Assembly: GCA_014728425.1 (NCBI GenBank)
Contig: WJLO01000026.1
Location: forward strand, 1 to 15,226
Reading direction: 5' to 3'
Source: Minisyncoccota bacterium
Lineage (GTDB): Bacteria; Patescibacteriota; Microgenomatia; UBA1400; PJMF01
Length of the DNA stretch: 15,226 bases
Shown: positions 877 through 15,226 of the stretch, piece after piece
How positions within the stretch are numbered: position 1 is the first letter of the stretch
Layout of the letters: every line of letters starts with the position of its first letter
The notes under the pieces: generated by a model
Database searches by the model: none
Told to the model about the DNA's origin: nothing
The model's input: only the letters and a program-made list of their open reading frames with translations
Program-made: the position numbers and the translations under genes

Positions 877-932
877 TAAATAATCTTTAGTGGTGTAACA
901 TTTTATTATTAATTTTTGTTCATAATTTTAGT

Positions 933-938
933 TATAAT
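933..938 (+). promoter_or_regulatory. -10 box TATAAT, leaderless start of the cupin gene
   Basis: A perfect TATAAT ends six bases before the GTG at 945, so transcription should start at or next to the start codon. No purine-rich Shine-Dalgarno lies between, and no convincing -35 element is present at 16-18 bases upstream. Confidence 0.6.
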
Positions 939-944
939 GAACCA

Positions 945-1553
945 GTGTTAAACAAAAACCTATTTTACCAGCCTGAAGCTGATCTGAGAATATCAGAAAA
1001 CGTTTTTCGCACCCAAATTCAGGATCTTTATTACCTCACTTATACTAAAAAACATGATCAGCGTGGTTTTTTTGCTGAGATGCTTAAAATGCCAGCAATT
1101 GAAAACCTCACTGGCCAAGAGTTTAAGATTCAGCAACTGAATTTTTCTTATTCAAAAACCAAAGTAGTACGCGGCCTTCATGCTGAAGGCTGGAACAAGT
1201 TAGTAGCTGTGGTAGATGGCGAGGCTTGCTGCGTATTAGCTGATGTTCGCCAAAACTCTGAAACTTTTAAAAAAGTTGTTTACTTTAAACTCAATTTCGA
1301 CCCTGAAAATGAAACCGGCCAGATGCTTTATATTCCTCAAGGAGTGGCTAACTCAATTTGCTCGCTAAATGGCCCAGTAAGTTATATTTATGGGGTTGAT
1401 AAACTCTATAAAAATCGAGAGGCTAAAGATAATCTGGCCATCTCAATCTTTGATCCAGATTTAAAGATTCAATGGCCGTTTACCAAAGAGGAAATTATCT
1501 TATCTAACCGCGATCAACAAGCAATTACTTTAACAGAGTTATTAAAAAAATAA
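945..1553 (+). CDS. RmlC-like cupin (dTDP-4-dehydrorhamnose 3,5-epimerase family)
   Basis: The 202-residue product matches the dTDP-sugar epimerase cupin family, which epimerises C3 and C5 of dTDP-4-keto-6-deoxyglucose for rhamnose synthesis or acts on related nucleotide sugars. Visible signatures are RGFF (40-43), the core VVRGLHAEGWNKLV (75-88), the LADVR strand (98-102), the turn YIPQGVANSI (129-138) and FDPDLKIQWP (169-178) before LSNRD (186-190). His79 in RGLH and Asp170 fit the catalytic His-Asp pair, and Tyr147, Tyr149 and Tyr155 are candidates for the acid. The usual AHGF of RmlC is ANSI here, so a histidine beside the sugar site is replaced by Asn136. No rmlA, rmlB or rmlD gene is nearby, so the substrate cannot be named; a 3-epimerase or sugar ketoisomerase is possible. 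The GTG start is chosen because the -10 box places transcription there. Confidence 0.75.
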   Translation: MLNKNLFYQPEADLRISENVFRTQIQDLYYLTYTKKHDQRGFFAEMLKMPAIENLTGQEFKIQQLNFSYSKTKVVRGLHAEGWNKLVAVVDGEACCVLADVRQNSETFKKVVYFKLNFDPENETGQMLYIPQGVANSICSLNGPVSYIYGVDKLYKNREAKDNLAISIFDPDLKIQWPFTKEEIILSNRDQQAITLTELLKK

Positions 1554-1566
1554 CTGGAACAGTAAA

Positions 1567-1599
1567 TTGTCACTAATATTAACTCTTAATAGTGAACAA
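1567..1599. terminator. AT-rich hairpin between convergent genes
   Basis: A stem of TTGT, CAC and TATTAA pairs with TTAATA, GTG and ACAA around a CTC loop (1583-1585), with small bulges at 1574-1576 and 1595. It lies 14 bases past the cupin stop and 82 bases past the stop of the convergent gene, so it could end transcription from both sides. There is no long T run, so this is a weak call. Confidence 0.3.
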
Positions 1600-1680
1600 C
1601 AGCTAGCTTCAATGCCGTTGCAAACCACCAAGTTGATAATCCTAAAAATTTAAGCTGAAGAGGAATGTCTACTAATGAGT

Positions 1681-2265
1681 TTAACCTGAACTATAATCTT
1701 TATTTTGACTCATGTCTCGCTCAATTAAATTGCGCAAATAAACCGAGCGAGGAATTTTTCTATCCTTAGCAATCCAATCTAAATAGTTTTGATGTTTGGG
1801 CGAGATAAAAAAGTTAAAGCGAGCATCCTGTTGGTCTGCTGCATAATCAATGGCATATTTAAGCACATCTGCTAAATCATTTTTGGTGTACTCTAGTACT
1901 TGTAGTTTGTCGTTTTCAATGCCAGTGGCAAAATATGGTTCATAATCTTTAAGATGCAAGGCAATCACTGGCTTGCTGCTTTCCAAGGCCTTTTGTAACA
2001 AATAGCCCATGGAGAGACTGTGTAATGATACCTCTAAAATTACCAGATCAGCAGACTTAATATGCTTCATCGTGCGCTTAAAATGAGCTATGCGGCTTTT
2101 ATGATCCCCTTCATAGAATTTTTTTCTATAAGTGGAACTTTTTTCATTAATGGTCAAATCATTTAGATGAGTATGGCCTAATTTTTTGATTAAACGATAG
2201 ATTTGTTGATAGTTCTTTTCAAATTGTTTGAGGCCCCGGGCAGAATAATCAAAATAGACTTTCAT
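1681..2265 (-). CDS. Nucleoside-deoxyribosyltransferase-like domain fused to a ribbon-helix-helix domain
   Basis: The 194-residue protein has two parts. Residues 1-145 read as a Rossmann-like fold of the nucleoside 2-deoxyribosyltransferase/TIR-like group: strand MKVYFDYS (1-8), helix 11-28, a second strand-helix with ADLVILEVSLHSLSMGY (72-88), then KPVIALHL (98-105). The catalytic Glu expected after the SMGY turn is missing (Leu89-Leu90). Residues 148-184, from ARFNFFISP to YLRNLIERDM, look like a ribbon-helix-helix DNA-binding unit: a short strand, helix, turn and helix ending in the typical YLRxLIERD. I infer a nucleotide-sensing regulator rather than an enzyme; a residual glycosidase is the alternative. 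It follows the cyclohydrolase gene with eight bases between them, but TATAAT at 2278-2273 sits seven bases before its ATG, so it can also be transcribed alone. No characterised homologue comes to mind. Confidence 0.6.
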   Translation of the reverse strand: MKVYFDYSARGLKQFEKNYQQIYRLIKKLGHTHLNDLTINEKSSTYRKKFYEGDHKSRIAHFKRTMKHIKSADLVILEVSLHSLSMGYLLQKALESSKPVIALHLKDYEPYFATGIENDKLQVLEYTKNDLADVLKYAIDYAADQQDARFNFFISPKHQNYLDWIAKDRKIPRSVYLRNLIERDMSQNKDYSSG

Positions 2266-2272
2266 GTTAATG

Positions 2273-2278
2273 ATTATA
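2273..2278 (-). promoter_or_regulatory. -10 box TATAAT overlapping the upstream stop codon
   Basis: TATAAT on the minus strand is followed by exactly seven bases and the ATG at 2265. Its central TAA (2276-2274) is also the stop codon of the cyclohydrolase gene, so the promoter and the end of the upstream gene share bases. Confidence 0.55.
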
Positions 2279-3005
2279 CTATAGATTTAAGATAAGCGAT
2301 AATCCCATTTAAAATTCGCAGGTTGTTCTTGATTTTCACCATCATACCCAGAGTAAAAGGCACTACTGCTGTCTGGCTCTGGTTAGTAAGTCGTTTTAAA
2401 AAGTTGTCAGAAATTAAATGACCTAATTTATTTTTTTTCACGGTCAGATAATCCACGGCTTTCTCCTCTAAATCATAAACCAATTCAACTCGATCTACTT
2501 CATAATCAGCCTGCTGGACTTGCTTGATTTTTTTCGGATTATTAGTTACTAATTTGATCTGTTTACTGACTTTTAGATCGCCCAAGGCGTCAATAGCAGC
2601 TTTATAGCTCCGAGGATCAATTGCATAATGAAGTTTTTTAAAAGCCTCTACAGTATCTAAATTCAATTCATTTTCTAAATTCATGGCATTAATTTTCCTC
2701 AGCAAACCATGTCCCCGACCTTCTTGATCCAGATAAATGATCACTCCTCGGCCTTCTCTTTGGATTAGCTCAAAAGTTTGATTAAGTTGTTGCTTGCAGT
2801 CACACTCAAAGGAATGAAAAGCCTCAGCAAACAAGCAAGAGGAATGGATCCTAACTAGGCAGTTTTTCTGAGTTAAATCACCAGTAGCAAAACTCAAACA
2901 AGATTGAGAATTGTGAGAGCTACGGTGTAATGAAGCCTGGAAGTTTCCAAACTTGGTCGATAATCTAGTACTAGATATAATTGGCACTATACTAAAAACA
3001 TTCAA
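2274..3005 (-). CDS. ribA: GTP cyclohydrolase II-like protein with a Tyr-to-Met active-site change
   Basis: The 243-residue protein has the full GTP cyclohydrolase II core: FGNF (19-22), VRIHSSC (51-57), FECDC (66-70), EGRGVIIYLDQEGRG (84-98), DTVEA (117-121), DPR (130-132), TNNPKK (154-159) and YLTVKKNKLGHL (186-197). Cys57, Cys68 and Cys70 keep the spacing of the zinc ligands Cys54, Cys65 and Cys67 of E. coli RibA. Asp130 and Arg132 match Asp126 and Arg128. The residue matching E. coli Tyr105 is Met108; the HRQEGR Arg90 is Asp93 here. In Streptomyces SCO6655 a Met at this position yields the formylated pyrimidine FAPy instead of the riboflavin precursor. About 45 residues extend past the normal end. 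No ribB, ribD, ribE or ribH is present. The TTG start is supported by TATTAA ending seven bases upstream; GTG at residue 7 is an alternative. Fold certain, product inferred. Confidence 0.85.
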   Translation of the reverse strand: MNVFSIVPIISSTRLSTKFGNFQASLHRSSHNSQSCLSFATGDLTQKNCLVRIHSSCLFAEAFHSFECDCKQQLNQTFELIQREGRGVIIYLDQEGRGHGLLRKINAMNLENELNLDTVEAFKKLHYAIDPRSYKAAIDALGDLKVSKQIKLVTNNPKKIKQVQQADYEVDRVELVYDLEEKAVDYLTVKKNKLGHLISDNFLKRLTNQSQTAVVPFTLGMMVKIKNNLRILNGIIAYLKSIV

Positions 3006-3006
3006 G

Positions 3007-3018
3007 TATTAATTAATA
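3007..3018. promoter_or_regulatory. 12-bp perfect palindrome over the cyclohydrolase promoter
   Basis: TATTAATTAATA reads the same on both strands and lies directly upstream of the TTG at 3005. On the minus strand its first six bases, TATTAA (3018-3013), are a four-of-six match to the -10 consensus at the spacing used elsewhere here. It could be an operator for a dimeric repressor, such as the neighbouring ribbon-helix-helix protein; this is inference, and AT-rich palindromes also arise by chance. Confidence 0.35.
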
Positions 3019-3060
3019 ACCCGGCATACATATTAGCATTGTCATTGACTAAACTCAAGG

Positions 3061-6000
3061 CTAGTTATCTGTAACTTGCTCTAAAAAACTCAATCCTCTA
3101 ATCTCCTGCATGACCTCTTTAATCAGTTTTTTTAACTCGGCCACTTCGCCGCCGTCTAAAATAAACTCGCGTCGCACAAATTTGTTACTTCTTTTTACTG
3201 GTTCAATAAAATCAAATCTAGCTTTAGTGGCAGTGGGAATAAAAGAACGGTCGAGCTCAGTTAATAGTTTATAAAAGAGCAGTTGTCGTTTATATGGTCC
3301 GCGAATGCTCACTGGCAAACTCTGTTCTCGTTCTGATAAATTGGCCGAAACAGTTTTGCCTTCGATCTCATTTTTACTTTTAGGTCGACCGGTTTTGTAA
3401 TCAATCACACAAACAGTTTTCTCGTTCTTATCAAGCCAATCTATACGATCAATTCTACCAGTTAAAACAATGTCGTCAAGCACGGTTTTACTCCAGCCAG
3501 TGCCAAAAAACCGCTCTACAAATAAAGGTGTTACCTGTTCATCTTGATAATGCTGATAATACTGCTTCAAAATCTCTTGACCATGAGCTAATCGCTGGCG
3601 ATAATCTTCTGGAGTAAGCACCTCTTGTTTTAAAGCTTGAGCAAAGCTTTGTAAAAATTTTTTTAATGGTGGACGATGGCCTTGCTCTAACAAAAACTTA
3701 TATTTTTGTTCCAAAGCAGCATGAACTGCACTGCCAAAGGCCATTGGTATTGGCTTGGCTCGAGGCACTCTCAGGAGAAAATTATCTACAAACTCTTGAG
3801 GATCGCGCAAGTAAGTGTTTAGAGCCGTGACTGATAAGCGAAAATCTTTAACCAAAGCTTGAAAAAACTCTTGCTCAGCAGTTTTTAACGGGCGCGCAGG
3901 AGCTGGAGCTAATAATTTTGCTAAATGATCGCTAGCTTGTTCCAAAGTTGATTGAGCCGTGAGTTTGGTAAATTCTGGCAACTCTTCTAAAAATAAACTA
4001 GCAGTAGTTTCTTTAGAGCGCCCTTCTTGTACAAACGAGCGAGGATAAGTAATTGTTACCTGTTTAGCAGCTCGAGTTAAAGCCACATAAAACAATCGAC
4101 GATCATCTTCGTTACGTTCTTTTTTTGATAAATCAGTATTTTTTAAAATTGCCGCTGGCAATTTAATCAACTCCCGATGGCGATTGTTTCCCCATTTGCC
4201 ATCTACAACATGCAACAAAAACACATAATCCCATTCCAAGCCTTTAGCCTTGTGCACAGTAGCTAAGTTAACTGCCTGATCTTTTAGATTAAGATCATCA
4301 ACATTTAACTTTAAACCATAAGCTTGCATGGTTTGAATAGCTTGAAGAAAACCTGCCAATTTAAGATCATGCTGCTGCCACACTAAGGCTTTGATCTGCC
4401 CAAACAATGAGTTTAGCTGATTTAACAACTCTGGCTTATTATCTTGACTTAAAATCCAGTCTAAATAGCCAGACTCTTTAATCACTTGCTCAAACCAGGC
4501 TGGGAAAGTTAATTTTGCATCTAAGCTGCTCCAGGTTAACAACTGATTTAAAAACTGCTCTAGTTGGTTAAACTCCAAAGCGGTGACTTTTTTACCCACC
4601 ACTTTCTTGCTAAAAGGCTCAAAACCAGCTTGAATAGTCTCAACCAAGCCTTGGCGGCTTTTACCAGCTACTCTAGCTAGCTGCATTACTAGCAACTCAT
4701 CCAAATCAACCCAAGGATAAAGCATTAACTGAAAAAACTCTTCGGTTTCACTGCTACTGCGCAAATCTACTAAAACTTGAAAAAACTTAAACAACTGCTG
4801 TAAATATTCTTGTTCTAAAATATTAGCTCCTCCAGTAATTTCATAATCCAATTCCCACTTAGCTAATACTTCAGCTAACTCAGCCTCATCAGCATTATGG
4901 CGATAAAGCACTGCAATTTGATTAGGCTTAACCCCCTGTTTTAATAACTTGCTAATCTCCTGAGCTAACCAAACTAACTCTAAAGTCTGCGCTGGAGCCT
5001 CCAAAACTCTAATAGCTGGTAATTTACTCTGATAACCTTGAATTGGCTCTGGTTCAACCACTAATTGATTGTTTTTGATCACCTGCTGAGCAGAATCATA
5101 AAGAGCTTGCGGACAACGATAACCTTGATCAAGCTGCACTACTAAAGCCTGAGGGTAATGTTCTTGAAACTCTAAAATATTTTCTAAAGAAGCCCCTTGA
5201 AATCGATAGATAGCCTGATTTGGATCACCTACTACAAAAATATTGGCTTGCTGTCCCCAATAATCAGCTAGCTTTATCACTACCTGATTTTGCGCTGAGT
5301 TAGTGTCTTGGTATTCATCAACTAAAAAATAATGAAGGTTTTCTTGATACTCTCGCAATAACAACTGATGCTCAGTAAAAGCCTCAACCACCAAGGCAAT
5401 CATGTCATCAAAATCATAACGACCCACCTGGCGTAATTGTTGCTCATAAGCCTGATACAACAAAAACAGTTCTTGATTTTTATCTAGCTGACGCTGCCAG
5501 CGGCGCTGCGCTGTTAAAGTTAGCTCAGGCTTGCCATTGGGCTTTTTAGCTTTTTTAGCTTGCGCTAGAGCCACTGCCTCTTGTTCTAAAATCTCTTGAA
5601 ACTCTTTTAGGTTAATCCCTTCTCGCTTGAGATCTGAAATAGCTCTAATTACAGTTTTAAGATATAGATAAGGAGCATTCAGTGGTCTTAATAGCTCCAA
5701 ATCAGTCTGGTCAATCAATTTTTGTAACAACTCATAGCGTTCTAAATCTGTTAAGGGCTGACTGCCTTGTTTAATAGGAAAATATTCTGGATGAGTTTGA
5801 ATAATCTCTTTACAAAAAGAGTGAAAAGTATGAATGTGTACATAATAACCAGTTTTGCCAATTAACTTCACAAGGCGTTCGCGCATATTAGCTGCTGCTG
5901 AATCAGTAAAAGTTAAAGCTAAAATAGCTTGTGGATCAGTGTCGGTTTGGTGCAGAATGTGAGCAATTCTAGTAGCCAATACTTGAGTTTTTCCAGTGCC

Positions 6001-6111
6001 AGGACCAGCCATGACCATGACTGGACCTTCAATAGCATCAACAGCTTTTTTTTGACTGGAATTAAGTCGTTGATAAGCGCGGTTAAATGAACTGCTTTTA
6101 GAGTTGGTCAT
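3061..6111 (-). CDS. UvrD/PcrA-type superfamily 1 helicase fused to a RecB-type nuclease
   Basis: From the ATG at 6111 the protein has 1016 residues. The helicase motifs appear in order: Q-motif LNSSQKKAV (16-24), Walker A AGPGTGKT (35-42), Walker B DEYQD (near 266-270), GDPNQAIYRFQGA (near 295-307), GYRCP (near 330-334), VHKAKGLEWD (near 619-628) and RRLFYVALTRA (near 671-681). The C-terminal third is a PD-(D/E)XK nuclease: His796 in GSAVHAAL, Asp888 in GRIDRID, Asp904 and Lys906 in VIDYKTG, then QLLFY (943-947). The set resembles AddA/AdnA-type helicase-nucleases that resect double-strand breaks. The cysteines of an AddB-like iron-sulfur cluster are absent: YLRDP replaces the usual YxxCP near 767. 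An upstream TTG (6144) and ATG (6120) are in frame but lie upstream of or inside the TATAAT that points to 6111. A partner subunit is not in view. Confidence 0.93.
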   Translation of the reverse strand: MTNSKSSSFNRAYQRLNSSQKKAVDAIEGPVMVMAGPGTGKTQVLATRIAHILHQTDTDPQAILALTFTDSAAANMRERLVKLIGKTGYYVHIHTFHSFCKEIIQTHPEYFPIKQGSQPLTDLERYELLQKLIDQTDLELLRPLNAPYLYLKTVIRAISDLKREGINLKEFQEILEQEAVALAQAKKAKKPNGKPELTLTAQRRWQRQLDKNQELFLLYQAYEQQLRQVGRYDFDDMIALVVEAFTEHQLLLREYQENLHYFLVDEYQDTNSAQNQVVIKLADYWGQQANIFVVGDPNQAIYRFQGASLENILEFQEHYPQALVVQLDQGYRCPQALYDSAQQVIKNNQLVVEPEPIQGYQSKLPAIRVLEAPAQTLELVWLAQEISKLLKQGVKPNQIAVLYRHNADEAELAEVLAKWELDYEITGGANILEQEYLQQLFKFFQVLVDLRSSSETEEFFQLMLYPWVDLDELLVMQLARVAGKSRQGLVETIQAGFEPFSKKVVGKKVTALEFNQLEQFLNQLLTWSSLDAKLTFPAWFEQVIKESGYLDWILSQDNKPELLNQLNSLFGQIKALVWQQHDLKLAGFLQAIQTMQAYGLKLNVDDLNLKDQAVNLATVHKAKGLEWDYVFLLHVVDGKWGNNRHRELIKLPAAILKNTDLSKKERNEDDRRLFYVALTRAAKQVTITYPRSFVQEGRSKETTASLFLEELPEFTKLTAQSTLEQASDHLAKLLAPAPARPLKTAEQEFFQALVKDFRLSVTALNTYLRDPQEFVDNFLLRVPRAKPIPMAFGSAVHAALEQKYKFLLEQGHRPPLKKFLQSFAQALKQEVLTPEDYRQRLAHGQEILKQYYQHYQDEQVTPLFVERFFGTGWSKTVLDDIVLTGRIDRIDWLDKNEKTVCVIDYKTGRPKSKNEIEGKTVSANLSEREQSLPVSIRGPYKRQLLFYKLLTELDRSFIPTATKARFDFIEPVKRSNKFVRREFILDGGEVAELKKLIKEVMQEIRGLSFLEQVTDN

Positions 6112-6118
6112 TAGCGTC

Positions 6119-6124
6119 ATTATA
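6119..6124 (-). promoter_or_regulatory. -10 box TATAAT, leaderless start of the helicase-nuclease gene
   Basis: TATAAT on the minus strand is followed by seven bases (6118-6112) and the ATG at 6111. The box overlaps an upstream in-frame ATG at 6120, which would therefore lie outside the transcript. Confidence 0.6.
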
Positions 6125-6149
6125 ATTGATTTAAAATAAAGCAACTATA

Positions 6150-7205
6150 TTAAGCTTTGTAATGCTCAAAAGCTTTTTTAACCTCTTGAGGGCTATTGGT
6201 TTGAAAAAGCTGAACTCGTAAAGCCTTGGCTTGAGAAAAGCCTTTTACATACCAACCCAAGTGTTTTCTCATGGGTGCAAAGCTATATTTTCTTTGTTGA
6301 TGAAAAGTTTGCTCATACAAATAACAGTGTTCTAAAGCCACTTGGATTTTCTCTGCTAAAGAAGGTTGATAATCTTGAAACACCCAAGGATTGCCCCAAC
6401 TCGCCCGACCAATTAGTACTCCTGCCACTCCATAAGTTTGCGCCTTGAGCACTGCCTCTTGTCTAGACTGCACATTACCATTACCTAAAATCAGTGTGTC
6501 AGTACCCTGAGCTAACTCCACTGCTTGCCCAATAGCTGACCAATCGGCTTGGCCACTATAACCTTGTTTAAAAGTACGACCATGCAAAGCAATTGCTGCT
6601 GGTTGCATAGCTAATAACCTTGGCAGCCAATCTTTAAGTTGCTGCTGCTTATACCCTAGTCTAGTTTTAATACTAACCGGCACTGGTTTTCTCACAGTAA
6701 CCAGGATAGGGGAGCAGGGGAGAGTAGTCTGACTAACTGTTTTAACTGCTGCACTTAAATCTGCACAATCAGCTACAGTTTTGCCATTAAGCCAATCTTC
6801 TACCCCAGCCTGAGTAGCTTGGATAATTTGCTGTGCCAACAGGGGAGTCTTGATCAAGCCAGCCCCTGCTCCACTGTTAGTAACATTTTTACTTGGACAA
6901 CCCATGTTAAGATCAATGCCAGCAAAACCTAATTGACAAAGCAACACTGCTACCTGACGAAAAAATCGTGGTGTTTGTCCATAAACCTGAGCAATGATCG
7001 GCTGCTGATCATGATCATAAAACAACTCTCTAGGAAAATACTTTTGTCCTCGACACAAAGCCTCTACACTGCAAAACTCTGTATAAATCAAATCCGGCTG
7101 GCCATACTTTTTAGTAATTTGGCGAAAGGGATGATCACTCACTCCATCCATTGGAGCTAAGCCTAAAATCGGTTGAGTTAATTTTTGCCAACAATACTGG
7201 CTCAT
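6150..7205 (-). CDS. dus: tRNA-dihydrouridine synthase
   Basis: The 351-residue protein is an FMN-dependent enzyme that reduces uridines in the tRNA D-loop using NAD(P)H. It starts with LAPMDGVSDHPFR (16-28), the FMN-binding entry of the TIM barrel. The catalytic cysteine is Cys103 in LNMGCPSKNV. Further contacts are Lys180 in SIKTRLGY, HGRTFKQGYSG (208-218), GNGNV (241-245) and GRASWGNPW (266-274), followed by a helical tRNA-binding end. About 35 residues (roughly 140-175) lie between the helix after the catalytic loop and the SIKTRLG strand, where relatives normally have a shorter link; this accounts for a length slightly above the usual 310-340. The ATG at 7205 is preferred over GTG 7211 because TAAAAT ends exactly seven bases before it. 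The gene lies between the C39-like gene and the helicase with gaps of about 40 bases; each neighbour has its own start signal. Confidence 0.93.
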   Translation of the reverse strand: MSQYCWQKLTQPILGLAPMDGVSDHPFRQITKKYGQPDLIYTEFCSVEALCRGQKYFPRELFYDHDQQPIIAQVYGQTPRFFRQVAVLLCQLGFAGIDLNMGCPSKNVTNSGAGAGLIKTPLLAQQIIQATQAGVEDWLNGKTVADCADLSAAVKTVSQTTLPCSPILVTVRKPVPVSIKTRLGYKQQQLKDWLPRLLAMQPAAIALHGRTFKQGYSGQADWSAIGQAVELAQGTDTLILGNGNVQSRQEAVLKAQTYGVAGVLIGRASWGNPWVFQDYQPSLAEKIQVALEHCYLYEQTFHQQRKYSFAPMRKHLGWYVKGFSQAKALRVQLFQTNSPQEVKKAFEHYKA

Positions 7206-7212
7206 GAACACA

Positions 7213-7218
7213 ATTTTA
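7213..7218 (-). promoter_or_regulatory. -10 box TAAAAT, leaderless start of dus
   Basis: TAAAAT on the minus strand is followed by seven bases (7212-7206) and the ATG at 7205. No Shine-Dalgarno is present. Confidence 0.5.
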
Positions 7219-7249
7219 GCATTCTTAAGATTAAATTCATCTAAGTAGA

Positions 7250-9067
7250 TTAATCAGCTAACAAACTTAATAAATATTGCAGATAAGCTAAAGCAGCTTT
7301 AGTAAGGTGCTGTTGATACCAACCAAGCCAAAAAGCTAACAGTTGCAAATAGCGCTGTTGAGCGGCCAACTCTGCCTGCTGAGCATAGCCAGTTAAGCGA
7401 TCTAACTGATGCCAGGCATAATATTTACTAAGCTGCTGCTGAAACAACAACTCGGTCAAGACCTGCCGAAAAAAATTAAAGTCAACCAAAGGAGTTAACT
7501 CACTGCTGCCATTGGTTTGATAAGTCAAGCCAAACTGCAAAGGCTGTTGACCAACCCAACCCTGTTCTTGCCAGTAACTTAACTCACCTTGCTGATCATA
7601 AGCATAAATCTCTAAATTAAACGGGCCTAAATTGGGCTGACTAAGCTCAATTACATAAGCTCCAGCAGCTGGCTGAGCTAAAAACTGCTGCAAGTATTGA
7701 GGGCTACTTTCTCCTGATTGATCAATCATATCTTGCAAGTGGTCATCCATTAATTGAGTGTTGCTTACCAACTCACCTAAAGCATTTTTTAACTCTACTT
7801 GCAATCCAACTGGATAAACCATTAATAAATAACTCAAATCTGTTTGACTTGGGGTAAAAATACGGGTTGATAATAACTCAGTTTGATGCTCACTAAAAAG
7901 CTGGTAATTAACAAAGGCCGGATCTTTAATAAAAAGGTCTTGCTGATCTGCTGGATAACCATCAGCTACTAAAAAATGGCCAGGTATCTGCAGGATAACT
8001 GGTTGACCTAAATCAAGTTGGGCAATAACCGGTAAAAACTGACCTGGTAGTTCAGTGGATAGCTCAATCTTAAGTTGACTGTATTCTAACTTAGGCAAAA
8101 GTTGCTCTACAGTGGAATATTGTTCACTGATCTGACTGGCTAAGCGCATAGCTGCTAGCCAATTTAATAAGCCTTCTCCTACATAGCCGTCTGGCTGTTC
8201 TTTTAACCAAATGTTAAGCGTGGCCGGAGTTAACTCAGTGCCATCTGGGAGCCAGTTAAGACCATAAAAGCGCATGATCATTGCTAAAGAGCTTAAAGCA
8301 CAACCCCAACGTTTGATGGTTGGTTGCTGAGACCAGTTGCGAGCCTGGTTGTATTCTTGAGCTGCCCAGGCAGGATCAACTTGACTAAATAAGGGTACAT
8401 CTAACTGTACTGGCTCAGCTGTAGGTTTAGTCAAGTTGCGAATCACTAAATTATCCCAATAAACATCAACTGGTACAACAGCACCAGTAGCTACCCGAAG
8501 GGCAAACTTACCAGCACTATTAACATCATAACTAGGATCAGTAAACTCTTTAATTAATTGTTCATTAATCCAAAGCTTGATAGCTGGTCCTTGCACTGCA
8601 ATCTTAAAATGGTAAGTCTGGCCATTCACTAAATTATAATTACCACTGGCAGCCCATAACAAATTTTTGTTTTGCTTGCGCACCAAATAAAACTGACCCG
8701 GAATAAACTGAAGATTATACCAAGTGCCAGGATCTTGATAGCCCCAAGTAATATTACGATCATGGCCTTTTTCTGGCCGAAAATCAAACTCAAACTCCAA
8801 AGCCTGCCATTGCTCGTCCCACAAACTGTCTTGGGGAACCAAATAAGTCTGCCTACCCTGCCACTGCACATAACCTCTGGCTTGTTCGTCAATAATCTCC
8901 CACCATTCCCAATGACCCTTGTCTAGCTGCCATTGAGTAAAACCTTGACTAAAATCTTCTTGAAAAACTACTGGTGCCTGAGTTTGTGCCCAAATCTTAG
9001 GTGGTCGAGTTAAAATCAACCCAGCCACCAACAACAGCCAATACAAATGTGAAAAACACCACCACAT
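7250..9067 (-). CDS. Secreted C39-like cysteine peptidase with an N-terminal lectin-like domain
   Basis: About 605 residues. The N-terminus has a hydrophobic core (9-19) and a possible cleavage site after WAQ or TQA (26-31), so the protein is probably exported. Residues 33-210, from FQEDFS to VYWDNLVI, look like a concanavalin/LamG-type beta-sandwich, rich in Trp and Tyr and possibly sugar-binding. Residues 222-385 match the C39-like peptidase family: VPLFSQVDPAW (224-234), Cys256 in WGCALSSLAMI, TPATLNIWL (280-288), His364 in GHFLVADGY and Asp382 in IKDPA, which fit a Cys-His-Asp triad. The last 200 residues hold a probable second beta domain and an amphipathic helical tail. A run AGAAAGG lies close before two ATGs (9070, 9067); its AAGG lies five bases before 9067, which is favoured over TTG 9088. 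Substrate is unknown; a wall-peptide or protein hydrolase is possible, as is an immunity or adhesion role. Confidence 0.75.
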   Translation of the reverse strand: MWWCFSHLYWLLLVAGLILTRPPKIWAQTQAPVVFQEDFSQGFTQWQLDKGHWEWWEIIDEQARGYVQWQGRQTYLVPQDSLWDEQWQALEFEFDFRPEKGHDRNITWGYQDPGTWYNLQFIPGQFYLVRKQNKNLLWAASGNYNLVNGQTYHFKIAVQGPAIKLWINEQLIKEFTDPSYDVNSAGKFALRVATGAVVPVDVYWDNLVIRNLTKPTAEPVQLDVPLFSQVDPAWAAQEYNQARNWSQQPTIKRWGCALSSLAMIMRFYGLNWLPDGTELTPATLNIWLKEQPDGYVGEGLLNWLAAMRLASQISEQYSTVEQLLPKLEYSQLKIELSTELPGQFLPVIAQLDLGQPVILQIPGHFLVADGYPADQQDLFIKDPAFVNYQLFSEHQTELLSTRIFTPSQTDLSYLLMVYPVGLQVELKNALGELVSNTQLMDDHLQDMIDQSGESSPQYLQQFLAQPAAGAYVIELSQPNLGPFNLEIYAYDQQGELSYWQEQGWVGQQPLQFGLTYQTNGSSELTPLVDFNFFRQVLTELLFQQQLSKYYAWHQLDRLTGYAQQAELAAQQRYLQLLAFWLGWYQQHLTKAALAYLQYLLSLLAD

Positions 9068-10338: not shown

Positions 10339-10424
10339 GGAAGTGTCGCATAGCGGTCAATTGCACTGGTCTTGAAAACCAGAGGCTCACGCCTTCGTGG
10401 GTTCGAATCCCACCACTTCCGCCA
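10339..10424 (+). tRNA. tRNA-Ser (anticodon UGA), CCA encoded
   Basis: A complete class II tRNA that reads UCA serine codons. The acceptor stem is GGAAGTG (10339-10345) with CACTTCC (10414-10420). The D stem is GCA/TGC with GG in the loop at 10355-10356. The anticodon stem CTGGT/ACCAG encloses CTTGAAA, with TGA at 10373-10375. A long variable arm GGC-TCAC-GCC (10384-10393) is typical of serine. The T arm is GTGGG-TTCGAAT-CCCAC (10397-10413). G73 is followed by an encoded CCA (10422-10424). Partial copies of this gene flank it on both sides, at 10276-10315 and 10514-10532. The frame at 10372-10572 that overlaps it is not a gene. Confidence 0.97.
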
Positions 10425-11544: not shown

Positions 11545-12534
11545 CTACAAATATTTCTCTGCCTCTTTAACATCTTTAGTGTTACCAATAAAAAGCGGAA
11601 TGCGTTGATGGAGTTTTTTAGGCACGATTTCTAAAACATCCTCTTGACCATTGCTAGCATAGCCACCAGCCTGTTTTATTAAATAAGCAAAAGGAATGCC
11701 TTCATATAATAACCGCAACTTTCCATTGGGATGTTTTTTATCTGCTGGGTACAGAAAGATCCCACCTTTTAATAAATTGCGGTGAAAATCTGCTACTAAA
11801 GAACCAATATAACGAGCTGTTCTAATCTTGCCCTTAGTGTTTTTGTCTTTTTTTAAGTTATCTACATAACCACGGAATTTCTGACCCCATTTAGGATAGT
11901 AGCTTTCATTAATGCTATAAATGGTGCTAGCCTCAGGTAACTGCAAACGCTCATGAGAGAGAATAAACTCACCAATTGAGGGATCTAAAGTAAAACCATG
12001 CACCCCACCACCTGTGGAGTAAACTAGCATCGTGCTAGAACCATAAACAAAGTAACCAGCACAAACAGCTTGTTTACCAGCCTGTAAATAATCTGCTTTA
12101 GTTAATTTTTTACCTTTACTTACTCGTCTAAAAATCACAAAGTTAGTACCCACGCTCACATTAACATCAATATTTGAACAACCATCTAAAGGATCAAGAT
12201 GTACAATATACTCACTGTGTTGATGATGGGCTTGATTAAAAACTACTATATCTGACACTTCTTCTGAACCCACTGCTTTAACATAAGGCGACTGTTTAAG
12301 TAGCTCAATAAAAGTGGTATTAGCAAAAACATCAAGCTTTTGCACCTCTTCTTGTTGCACATTGATCTCACCAGTAGCACCCAAAATATCTACTAGACCA
12401 GCTTTAGTAACTTCTCGAGACACTAATTTAGCTGCCAAAACCAGCTGGTTAATGATATTAGCCAATTCCAGGCTTTCACGACTATAGGTATTTTCGTGCA
12501 ATAAATGACGAGTTAAATTTACCAGAGAAGACAT
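11545..12534 (-). CDS. fbp: Class I fructose-1,6-bisphosphatase
   Basis: The 329-residue enzyme removes the 1-phosphate of fructose 1,6-bisphosphate, the committed step towards hexose phosphates. Family blocks are complete: GATGEINVQQEEVQKLD (52-68), SEE with Glu91-Glu92, the metal site DPLDGCSNID (114-123) with Asp114 and Asp117, YSINE (206-210), RYIGSLVADFHRNL (241-254), the substrate stretch YPADKKHPNGKLRLLYE (262-278) ending in metal ligand Glu278, and QAGGYAS (288-294). The usual DPLDGSSNID has Cys119 for Ser, and GTIF is GTNF. It is the last gene visible of the pgk-aldolase operon. AAAGGAG lies four bases before the ATG, a strong ribosome site, unlike the leaderless genes here. A nested hairpin occupies the gap in front of it. 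Length and residues indicate an active enzyme. Confidence 0.95.
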   Translation of the reverse strand: MSSLVNLTRHLLHENTYSRESLELANIINQLVLAAKLVSREVTKAGLVDILGATGEINVQQEEVQKLDVFANTTFIELLKQSPYVKAVGSEEVSDIVVFNQAHHQHSEYIVHLDPLDGCSNIDVNVSVGTNFVIFRRVSKGKKLTKADYLQAGKQAVCAGYFVYGSSTMLVYSTGGGVHGFTLDPSIGEFILSHERLQLPEASTIYSINESYYPKWGQKFRGYVDNLKKDKNTKGKIRTARYIGSLVADFHRNLLKGGIFLYPADKKHPNGKLRLLYEGIPFAYLIKQAGGYASNGQEDVLEIVPKKLHQRIPLFIGNTKDVKEAEKYL

Positions 12535-12561
12535 AGAGCTCCTTTCAAAAATTAATTACCT

Positions 12562-12594
12562 AACTGATAACATTAGTCTGACTAACTATCAGTT
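12562..12594. promoter_or_regulatory. Nested hairpin between the aldolase gene and fbp
   Basis: AACTGATA (12562-12569) pairs perfectly with TATCAGTT (12587-12594). Inside, TTAGT (12573-12577) pairs with ACTAA (12581-12585) around CTG. This gives 13 pairs with a small internal loop. It lies 28 bases before the fbp start on the minus strand. No T run follows directly, so an RNA processing, stabilising or protein-binding site is more likely than a plain terminator. Confidence 0.5.
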
Positions 12595-12624
12595 GAGCAT
12601 TTGTTATTCTTTAAGCTGCTGTAC

Positions 12625-13953
12625 TTAATCAGCCAGTCCCTTAACCTCAGGTTGTTGTTCTTGCTGAGGCACAAAATCGGCTTTGGTCTTGTCAATCACT
12701 ACTGGCTTAACCTGCTTAGTTACCAATTTTTGAGTGTTTACCACATTTAACTGCTTAAACATAAAGGTAAACCGCTTAACCAAAGCTTGGCGAATTGGCT
12801 TTTGCACTTTAGCAGGCAAGTCCCAAACTTGTTTTTTAAACTGACCCCAAGCTTTTTTGCGCAGCTTATAATGAAACTGTTCTTCAGATTGATCTTGACC
12901 CTTTTCATCTTTTTTAGCTTGATCTAACCAAGCATAGATCTTTTTTAAGAGATCTTTAGGGAAGGCTTGATGATCCATAATAATGTTTTGAAAACCAGTA
13001 GCTAAATGAACCTCAATTGCCTCTGATTTAGCAAACTGAGCAAAAAACTCATCTGGTAGGGTAGAAGCTCCATGTTGAACTGCTCCTCCCATCTGGTACT
13101 TGTCTCGAGCAATCTGTGAAATATCACGTAAGATAGAAAAATCCACATTAACATCTGCTAATGAGCCATCTGGCAACACCACACCACCATGATGAGTGCC
13201 AGTTTGTACACTAATCTTACTCATGCCAATCATATTCTGAGACAAACCTTGATTATATTGATCCATAAAAGCGGTAAAATCTGTAACTGTGCTGTTTTTT
13301 CCGCCAATATGGCCGATTTCCCCGCCTAAAGACACTGTGACCCCCTGAGGTTCTAAACTGCGGGTCCATTTTGTCAGCTCTAAAGAGTATTTAGCATTAG
13401 GAGTTTGTTGAGCTATTTCATCAGCCTGATCAAGATTAACCAAAGTGGACATATCAATATCAATGTTATAAAAACCAGCTTCAATGGCTTCTTTGATCAA
13501 CTTTTTAATAGTCTCGATCTCCCCTTTTTTAGGTACGCCAGTTTTAGCTGCTTTAGCCTGAAAATGATCACCTTGAATAAACAAAGGTCCGGACCAGCCT
13601 TCTCGCAGAGCTGCTGCTGAAATCACACTAACATATTCTTGAGGTCGTTGGGCAGTGTAGCCAATTTCTGAACGGGCAATTTCAAAAATAATGGCACCAA
13701 CTTGCAGCTTTTTGGCTGCCTGAAAAGCTGCCCTGGCAGTATTATAAGCCATCCCACGTACATTAATCGCTGGCACAGTAAAATCTAGTGGTAGTTTTTC
13801 TTTACCTCTAGCTAAATAAAAATCATTGATTGAAGCAGGAATAATATTTTTAGCAATCGCTTGTTGCCAAATTTGGTAACGAGCAGTTTGTTTTTCGTTT
13901 TGATCACCAAAAACGGCCTGATAAACTAATTGGTCAAGCTGTTGGTTGGTCAT
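12625..13953 (-). CDS. fba: Class II fructose-bisphosphate aldolase, long divergent form
   Basis: The 442-residue protein keeps the zinc-dependent class II aldolase sites: IQGDHFQ (126-132) with catalytic Asp129 and zinc ligand His130, NIDIDMSTL (163-171), SLGGEIGHIGGKNST (208-221) with Glu212 and the glycine-rich phosphate loop, GTHHGG (252-257) and GGAVQHGAST (289-298) with His294. These enzymes join or split dihydroxyacetone phosphate and glyceraldehyde 3-phosphate. Ordinary members have about 280-360 residues; here an N-terminal lead of about 55 and a Lys/Gln-rich tail of about 100 are added. Position between pgk and fbp supports the fructose-bisphosphate reaction; tagatose-bisphosphate remains possible. 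GAGGAGG precedes the ATG by four bases, an excellent ribosome site. The gap to pgk is 39 bases and to fbp 90 bases. Confidence 0.88.
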   Translation of the reverse strand: MTNQQLDQLVYQAVFGDQNEKQTARYQIWQQAIAKNIIPASINDFYLARGKEKLPLDFTVPAINVRGMAYNTARAAFQAAKKLQVGAIIFEIARSEIGYTAQRPQEYVSVISAAALREGWSGPLFIQGDHFQAKAAKTGVPKKGEIETIKKLIKEAIEAGFYNIDIDMSTLVNLDQADEIAQQTPNAKYSLELTKWTRSLEPQGVTVSLGGEIGHIGGKNSTVTDFTAFMDQYNQGLSQNMIGMSKISVQTGTHHGGVVLPDGSLADVNVDFSILRDISQIARDKYQMGGAVQHGASTLPDEFFAQFAKSEAIEVHLATGFQNIIMDHQAFPKDLLKKIYAWLDQAKKDEKGQDQSEEQFHYKLRKKAWGQFKKQVWDLPAKVQKPIRQALVKRFTFMFKQLNVVNTQKLVTKQVKPVVIDKTKADFVPQQEQQPEVKGLAD

Positions 13954-13992
13954 GTGACCTCCTCAATTAATTAAATAATTTTAATAATCTTA

Positions 13993-15226
13993 TTAAGCTT
14001 GAACTGCTTTTACCCCTGGTAAAACCTTACCTGATAAAAACTCTAAACTAGCACCGCCAGCAGCGCTCACATAGTCGTATCGATCTTCTAAATCAAACTG
14101 CCGAATAGCAGCAATAGTGTCGCCGCCGCCAATAATGGTAGTGGCGCTAGATTTAGCAATTGCCCGAGCAATCTCTTGAGTGCCATGAGCAAAAAGTTTT
14201 TTTTCAAACACACCCATAGGACCGTTCCAAAACACGGTTTTAGCCTGTAAAATCAATTCTTGAAACAAACGAATGGTTTTTTCTCCAATATCAAGATACA
14301 TTAACTCATGTTTAACTGATTTTTCATAACCATTAATTAAGTTAAGTTGTTGGGTTTTGCGACTTTTACTAGAACGAGCAGCAATAACATCAATGGGGTA
14401 AACAATTTTAGGTAGAGGAATATAGCCATCTTTTAACAACCGATCGGTTTTACTTTCAGCAATGATTTTTTTCGCAACCTCTACATAACTCACTCCTTTT
14501 TTCTTAAGATCAGCTGGAGTGTCTTGTAAATAAGAACTGGCTACATCATAGCCATCGGCCTTTAAAAAATTATTGGCTACGCCACCGCCAACTAAAACTA
14601 CGTCAGCAATCTTGGTCAAGTTGGTTAAAGCTGCCACTTTATCTGAGATTTTAGCCCCACCTACCACCATCACAAAAGGTCTTTTGGGATTTTCCATTAA
14701 CATTGATAAGGCTTCAACCTCTTTTTCAAAACCAAGACCAGCATAACTAGGTAATAACTTGCTTACCCCAGTGATTGAGGCATGATCACGATGAGCAGTA
14801 GAAAAAGCTTCATTAACATAAAGATCAGCCAAGCTGGCTAGCTGTTTACTAAACTTAGCATTGTTTTGTTTTTCCTGAGGATAAAAACGGAGATTTTCTA
14901 ATAGTAAAATCTCCCCTGGTTGTAACTTTTCAACAGCTGCTTCTACCTTAGGACCAACGCAGTCAGCCACAAACTTAACTGGTTTATCAATCAGTTTCTG
15001 TAAATGCTTGGCTACTGGCTGAGCACTAAGTTTAGGATCAACCTGACCACCTGGTCGACCAAGATGGGTCATTAAAATCAACTTGGCTTTGGCTTCAACC
15101 AATAATTTAAGTGTGGGTAAAGAAACTTTGATACGATTATCGTCTGCTACTTCAGTGTGGTTTTGATGGTAAGCAAAGGGAACGTTATAATCAGCGCGGA
15201 TTAAAACTTTTTTCTGAGCAGCAAGC
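13993..15226 (-). CDS. pgk: Phosphoglycerate kinase, N-terminus cut by the window edge
   Basis: The open frame runs through the right edge: bases 15225-15103 encode KKVLIRADYNVPF and ADDNRIKVSLPTL, the classic phosphoglycerate kinase N-terminus, so TTG 15102 is an internal codon and not the start. About 410 residues are visible, and probably only about ten are missing. The enzyme transfers phosphate between 1,3-bisphosphoglycerate and ADP. Further blocks are THLGRPGG near the start, LLLENLRFYPQE, AHRDHASITG, VMVVGGAKISDK, VFWNGPMGVFE, IIGGGDTIAAI and YDYVSAAGGASLEFLSGK; the last is SxGGGA in most relatives and AAGGA here. It is the first visible gene of the pgk-aldolase-fbp operon; its promoter lies outside the window. 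Confidence 0.96.
   Translation of the reverse strand, partial: LAAQKKVLIRADYNVPFAYHQNHTEVADDNRIKVSLPTLKLLVEAKAKLILMTHLGRPGGQVDPKLSAQPVAKHLQKLIDKPVKFVADCVGPKVEAAVEKLQPGEILLLENLRFYPQEKQNNAKFSKQLASLADLYVNEAFSTAHRDHASITGVSKLLPSYAGLGFEKEVEALSMLMENPKRPFVMVVGGAKISDKVAALTNLTKIADVVLVGGGVANNFLKADGYDVASSYLQDTPADLKKKGVSYVEVAKKIIAESKTDRLLKDGYIPLPKIVYPIDVIAARSSKSRKTQQLNLINGYEKSVKHELMYLDIGEKTIRLFQELILQAKTVFWNGPMGVFEKKLFAHGTQEIARAIAKSSATTIIGGGDTIAAIRQFDLEDRYDYVSAAGGASLEFLSGKVLPGVKAVQA

Follow-up and report, generated by a model that had tools for sequence, protein, structure and literature searches.

A methionine-type GTP cyclohydrolase II homologue in a patescibacterial genome and its probable place outside riboflavin synthesis

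Introduction

A described counterpart of a GTP cyclohydrolase II (GCHII) carrying methionine at the tyrosine site is SCO6655 of Streptomyces coelicolor, which, as Spoonamore reportedly found in 2006, stops after the first reaction step and yields FAPy (2-amino-5-formylamino-6-ribosylamino-4(3H)-pyrimidinone 5'-phosphate). GCHII works in two steps, described in an excerpt of PMC9478397 as ring cleavage with loss of pyrophosphate to give a formylamino nucleotide, followed by deformylation to DARPP. Likewise, GCHII is treated as a DARPP-forming enzyme in an excerpt of PMC13028884, and SCO6655 is placed under riboflavin metabolism by KEGG according to an excerpt of PMC2853524. Among the literature matches listed, from a search covering few subscription journals, no publication describing a family of Tyr-less GCHII enzymes was found.

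Other systems resemble such an enzyme in different respects. GTP cyclohydrolase III (GCH III, ArfA), acting with the ArfB/BrbF formamidase, shares the formylated nucleotide product proposed here (excerpt of PMC9478397) but has an unrelated, GGDEF-like fold (excerpt of PMC7288161). The 8-azaguanine cluster (ptnA to ptnF), as an excerpt of PMC7109123 presents it, combines a GTP ring opener with a nucleosidase within a single operon that does not serve vitamin synthesis; however, PtnA is GCH I-like and thus of another family, and no nitric oxide synthase gene was noticed on reading the whole stretch of DNA analysed here. The stretch analysed here (the window, 15,226 nucleotides) comes from a Minisyncoccota bacterium whose genome (G000) measures 846 kb and is 81% complete.

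A GCHII-family gene with methionine at the tyrosine site

The gene lies on the minus strand at 2274..3005 and encodes 243 amino acids, from a TTG at 3005 to the stop codon at 2276-2274. An in-frame GTG at 2987 (residue 7) is a possible alternative start, giving 237 amino acids, since relatives begin at the residue encoded there in the A1 alignment. An earlier note had named this frame a GCHII homologue, which is borne out by a PF00925 match of 146.8 bits (cut-off 23.3, E 5.7e-43) covering profile positions 5-161 of 165, and the protein aligns with the solved GCHII enzymes 4rl4, 2bz0 (E. coli RibA) and 4i14. It stays under the cut-off of the RibA equivalog TIGR00505 (174.1 bits against 205.85) and passes NF001591, a looser subfamily model entitled 'GTP cyclohydrolase II RibA' (165.1 bits against 148).

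Compared with E. coli RibA (2bz0/2bz1), the protein keeps the PF00925 domain, the three zinc cysteines (Cys54/65/67 in E. coli numbering), Glu92, Arg94, Asp126, Arg128 and Lys154, but differs in Tyr105, which is replaced by Met108, and in Thr56, Asn118, Asp58 and others. Several statements of the earlier note thus hold: the zinc ligands and the Asp/Arg pair are retained, and Cys57-Met108 aligns with Cys54-Tyr105 of 2bz0 without gaps. The methionine itself was also read correctly, but its codon had been placed near 2681-2683, one base off; it occupies 2682..2684 on the minus strand (read from 2684 to 2682; CAT on the plus strand). The replacement of Arg90 by Asp93, which the note had found unusual, is uninformative, as 86 Tyr-type sequences have Arg in 34 cases and Asp in 25 at this site, and it was rejected as a sign of divergence.

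About residues 199-243 (2277..2411, minus strand) form an unmatched hydrophobic and basic C-terminal tail. The note had singled out this tail of some 45 residues, and it is real as an open reading frame; the other rows of the A1 alignment (21 rows in all) reach into it for a few residues at most. On the upstream side, a UvrD/PcrA-type helicase frame of the same orientation (3061..6144, minus strand, named by reading its translation) ends 55 bases before the GCHII start. A promoter scan of 900-3300 gave 12 promoter-like sites against 7.3 expected, too little to be of use, and a terminator scan of the same interval found none. The G+C content over 1501-3000 is 0.349-0.359, at the low end of the window's range of 0.339-0.431. 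Elsewhere in the window, a tRNA-Ser (TGA) lies at 10339-10424, and a class 1 fructose-bisphosphatase, a class II aldolase-like gene and a phosphoglycerate-kinase-like gene (the kinase named by reading) stand in a row at 11545-15225, which reads as a gluconeogenesis-like block.

A distinct tyrosine-less type of GCHII

Two protein searches gave 217 sequences; a tree of 226 leaves was made from these, eight proteins taken from loci, and E. coli RibA. Site 105 was Met in 93 leaves, Tyr in 86, Leu in 39, Ile in 6 and Val in 2, proportions that are biased because the sequences are top-ranked samples of 809 and 7978 matches and the second search was run with an alignment picked to represent the non-Tyr type. 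All but one of the 140 non-Tyr leaves formed one group without any Tyr (139 leaves, support 0.786), around a core of 128 leaves with support 0.987; the outer 11 (nine P0025-like sequences, L004 and L013) attached weakly (0.29). The window protein fell within a subgroup of eight leaves (support 0.913). A mixture-model IQ-TREE analysis of 56 rows likewise separated the 29 non-Tyr rows from all others by a single branch (SH-aLRT 93), with the window's own placement unsure and L013 and L014 on long branches.

The group differs from the Tyr type at several further sites. Thr56 is found in 100% of the Tyr type and is Phe in 96% of the non-Tyr group; Asn118 (98% of the Tyr type) is Phe in 83%, and Asp58 (90% of the Tyr type) is Glu throughout. 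Moreover, Ala34 is replaced by Ser in 85% of the group and Arg64 mostly by His or Asp, with Glu in the window. The catalytic core is retained, with Arg49, the zinc cysteines, Glu92, Arg94, Asp126, Arg128 and Lys154 each present in 135 or more of the 139 leaves. The nearest relatives of the window protein are 53% identical to it, and it keeps the signature sites of the group. Judged by sequence, Met108 is no lone change, and the window protein belongs to a distinct type of GCHII with a signature of its own.

Distribution of the tyrosine-less type

The type is patchily distributed around the window's lineage. Within its family and order, the window protein has matches in 5 of 37 genomes: the window genome itself, G013 (with Tyr), G028 (the divergent Leu-type L004) and two more, with E values of 1e-5 to 6e-5, in which the residue was left unread. 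Across the phylum, profile matches occurred in 53 of 379 sampled genomes (55 matches in total); loci were read for 30 of these, the window and 29 others, and all 29 inspected loci, among 54 non-self matches, carry Tyr. For the phylum that contains the Pacearchaeota genome G458, there were 65 matches, spread over 61 of 371 genomes, and the 30 loci read comprised 27 with Tyr, two with Met (G458 and G460) and one without the motif. When 84,980 species genomes were scanned with search patterns that favour the non-Tyr type, eight loci came back, none with Tyr.

A phage or plasmid origin of the window gene was considered and rejected, as the tblastn matches of the protein, in 5 phage and 205 plasmid records, all lie below 60% identity. 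Residue 105 was read in one plasmid match (H5) and in none of the phage matches; loci on viral contigs carried Tyr in 12 of 12 cases. Plasmid searches with P0007 and P0011 gave no match at 60% identity or more.

Some non-Tyr loci have gene rows of their own. L004 (156-2307), from the window's order, encodes a Leu-type GCHII-like protein with an insert of about 15 residues right after the switch site, and the gene is followed by an AA_kinase gene and a uridine-kinase-like gene. In the patescibacterial locus L007 (2984-10243), arginine-decarboxylase-like, deoxyhypusine/homospermidine-synthase-like, fluorothreonine-transaldolase-like and aminotransferase genes are followed by a Leu-type GCHII and an acetolactate-synthase-like TPP enzyme, perhaps a biosynthetic cluster. 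L013 of Methylomonas (1302-8078), a possible natural-product cluster, holds genes for an epimerase-like protein, an Ile-type GCHII, NADAR, asparagine synthase and a weakly matching N-acetyltransferase-like protein.

Riboflavin genes in genomes with the tyrosine-less type

The window genome has a single PF00925 gene, the Met-type one. The earlier note had seen no other riboflavin gene in view, which is true of the window; at 81% completeness, the genome as a whole also yielded no second PF00925 gene, no RibH (PF00885) and no RibB (PF00926). Its one RibD_C match is a frame of 185 residues, which reads as dihydrofolate-reductase-sized rather than RibD-sized. RibH occurs in 1 of the 37 genomes of the window's family and order (window included), namely G013, in which genes read from their translations as RibE-, RibH-, RibB-, RibA- (Tyr) and RibD-like form a cluster.

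The search was extended to eight more genomes that carry the non-Tyr type (G457-G464). In the small genomes G457-G461 the non-Tyr gene is the only PF00925 gene; G462, G463 and G464 have four, three and three PF00925 matches. RibB and the creatininase-type formamidase PF02633, the family of ArfB/BrbF, were each found in 0 of 6 genomes (G000 and G457-G461). RibH was found in 3 of the 9 genomes with the non-Tyr type (G457, G462 and G464), and hence in only one of the six just named. In G457, a Leu-type GCHII is the sole PF00925 gene and RibH adjoins a RibE-like gene, so that riboflavin synthesis in that organism might still draw on a non-Tyr enzyme. For the window genome, the non-riboflavin role proposed in the note gains support, as its sole GCHII is of the Met type and RibB, RibH and PF02633 were not found; by these gene contents the enzyme probably stands outside riboflavin synthesis.

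The DNPH1-like neighbour and possible N-glycosidases

Downstream of the GCHII gene, with its ATG 8 bases after the stop codon, lies a gene for a 194-residue protein of the DNPH1/Rcl/MilB fold (1681..2265, minus strand), positive in the Rcl fold test and bearing a helical C-terminal extension. Its Glu78 is the same in all 11 rows of the A3 alignment and aligns with the nucleophilic Glu of Rcl. The catalytic Asp, D69 in rat Rcl, corresponds to D80 of human DNPH1 (mutated in 8rps and 8rpt; D80N, D80A). Unlike the N-glycosidases DNPH1/Rcl, MilB and BlsM, the DNPH1-like protein of the window has Thr62 at this site in addition to its extra helical part; Asp occurs in 0 of the 11 A3 rows at that column, and in the DNPH1-like protein of L089 an Asp stands one residue away.

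The DNPH1-like family, which shares the added C-terminal helices, is present in 49 of the 88 genomes of the window's order, at times in arrays, such as the six matches that share a contig in G027. Seven stretches with such a gene were read (L083-L089); it never stands beside a GCHII gene, and in three of them it directly follows a recR-like gene. The A3 profile found no DNPH1-like gene in 55 other GCHII loci (29 Tyr-type controls, each about 3.5 kb long, plus another 26 loci of both types), a control that is weak owing to short flanks, a NADAR query of one sequence and a Q_salvage query of two rows. Conserved synteny of GCHII and DNPH1-like genes was found in neither set. An anti-phage link of the pair was also dropped, as PADLOC gave no match for either protein.

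Possible N-glycosidases of three different families stand next door in 4 of 10 non-Tyr loci: DNPH1-like in the window, NADAR in L013 and Q_salvage-like in L012 and L014. With the narrow queries used, none was found in the other six. The name Q_salvage-like rests on Pfam matches below the curated cut-off (0.0038 for L012, 2.4e-4 for L014), and the predicted structure of the L012 protein has a pLDDT of 37. An Ile-type GCHII, the Q_salvage-like gene and a convergent DNA methyltransferase-like gene lie together in L012 (7890-10730) and L014 (about 3800-6790), an arrangement common to a Pseudomonas genome and a genome labelled Deltaproteobacteria. A search of the family to which G462 belongs (298 genomes) turned up the L012 protein in G462 itself only, and the pairing is thus rare. 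Taken as gene neighbourhoods, these loci suggest a possible module of ring opening and base release, although the DNPH1-like protein lacks the catalytic Asp and its family mostly occurs apart from GCHII.

Proposed reaction and alternative explanations

As in GCHII, a zinc-bound water would open the imidazole ring of GTP at C8 and pyrophosphate would leave; without the tyrosine, the formylated nucleotide FAPy, which is also the product of archaeal GCH III, would be released rather than deformylated. That the window gene encodes such a zinc-dependent GTP ring opener, which has left riboflavin synthesis and stops at FAPy, is the reading towards which we lean, with moderate confidence. FAPy as the product, which the earlier note had put forward, is plausible on the grounds of one residue and the reported SCO6655 work. 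The window protein shares with SCO6655 the Met reported at the Tyr105 site of the latter. The only Streptomyces Met-type found (L107, on an S. globisporus plasmid and not SCO6655 itself) differs in keeping the canonical Ala34, Glu53, Thr56, Asp58 and Asn118, all five of which are changed in the window, and in the best trees it groups with Tyr-type RibA outside the window's group. Met may therefore have arisen twice, and FAPy is transferred to the window protein by analogy. A separate origin in Streptomyces is favoured by the residues and best trees, but an AU test did not reject a single origin (L107 with the window group; p 0.408). At L107 (743-6609), RibD_C, PTPS and glycosyltransferase genes lie near the Met-type GCHII, perhaps an SCO6655-like cluster.

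An enzyme with the same fold and zinc site but another substrate or reaction, for which FAPy from GTP is not the physiological product, is rather unlikely: Thr56, Asn118, Asp58 and Arg64 changed together, which is more than a single switch needs, and the gene neighbourhoods are mixed, yet the near-complete retention of Arg49, the zinc cysteines, Glu92, Arg94, Asp126, Arg128 and Lys154 across the group speaks against it. We consider it improbable that the gene is an ordinary RibA that tolerates Met and makes DARPP, with the other pathway genes lying in sequence that the assembly lacks or being carried by a partner organism. Such an explanation can draw on the incompleteness of the genome, the rib cluster of the relative G013 and the RibH of G457 with its Leu-type enzyme; against it stand the single RibH-bearing genome among the 37 of the family and order, the lack of RibB in the six genomes and the Tyr of all 29 non-self loci inspected in the phylum. 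Least probable is a horizontally acquired gene that drifts without function and owes its tail to a lost stop codon. Its patchy distribution, unmatched tail and low G+C would fit, but the frame is open over 243 codons with all catalytic residues, and the signature sites are kept at 53% identity to the nearest relatives.

Beyond the FAPy-forming ring opener that we prefer, a further step is speculative: the DNPH1/MilB-like neighbour might cut FAPy at the N-glycosidic bond, which would give the free formamidopyrimidine base and ribose 5-phosphate. In its widest form, Tyr-less GCHII and an N-glycosidase from at least three families would free a ring-opened guanine base in a patchy, riboflavin-independent pathway spanning Patescibacteria, DPANN archaea and environmental bacteria and serving a metabolite or base modification. 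Taken as a whole, this proposal is unlikely.

Significance

What would be new is the possible coupling of the enzyme to N-glycosidases that can stand in for one another. As NF001591 accepts the protein, annotation would credit the window genome with a riboflavin step that it probably lacks. Should the preferred reading be true, a formamidopyrimidine derived from GTP would be made, apart from vitamin B2 synthesis, by a sizeable group of enzymes (139 leaves, from biased sampling), some of them in genomes under 1.3 Mb.
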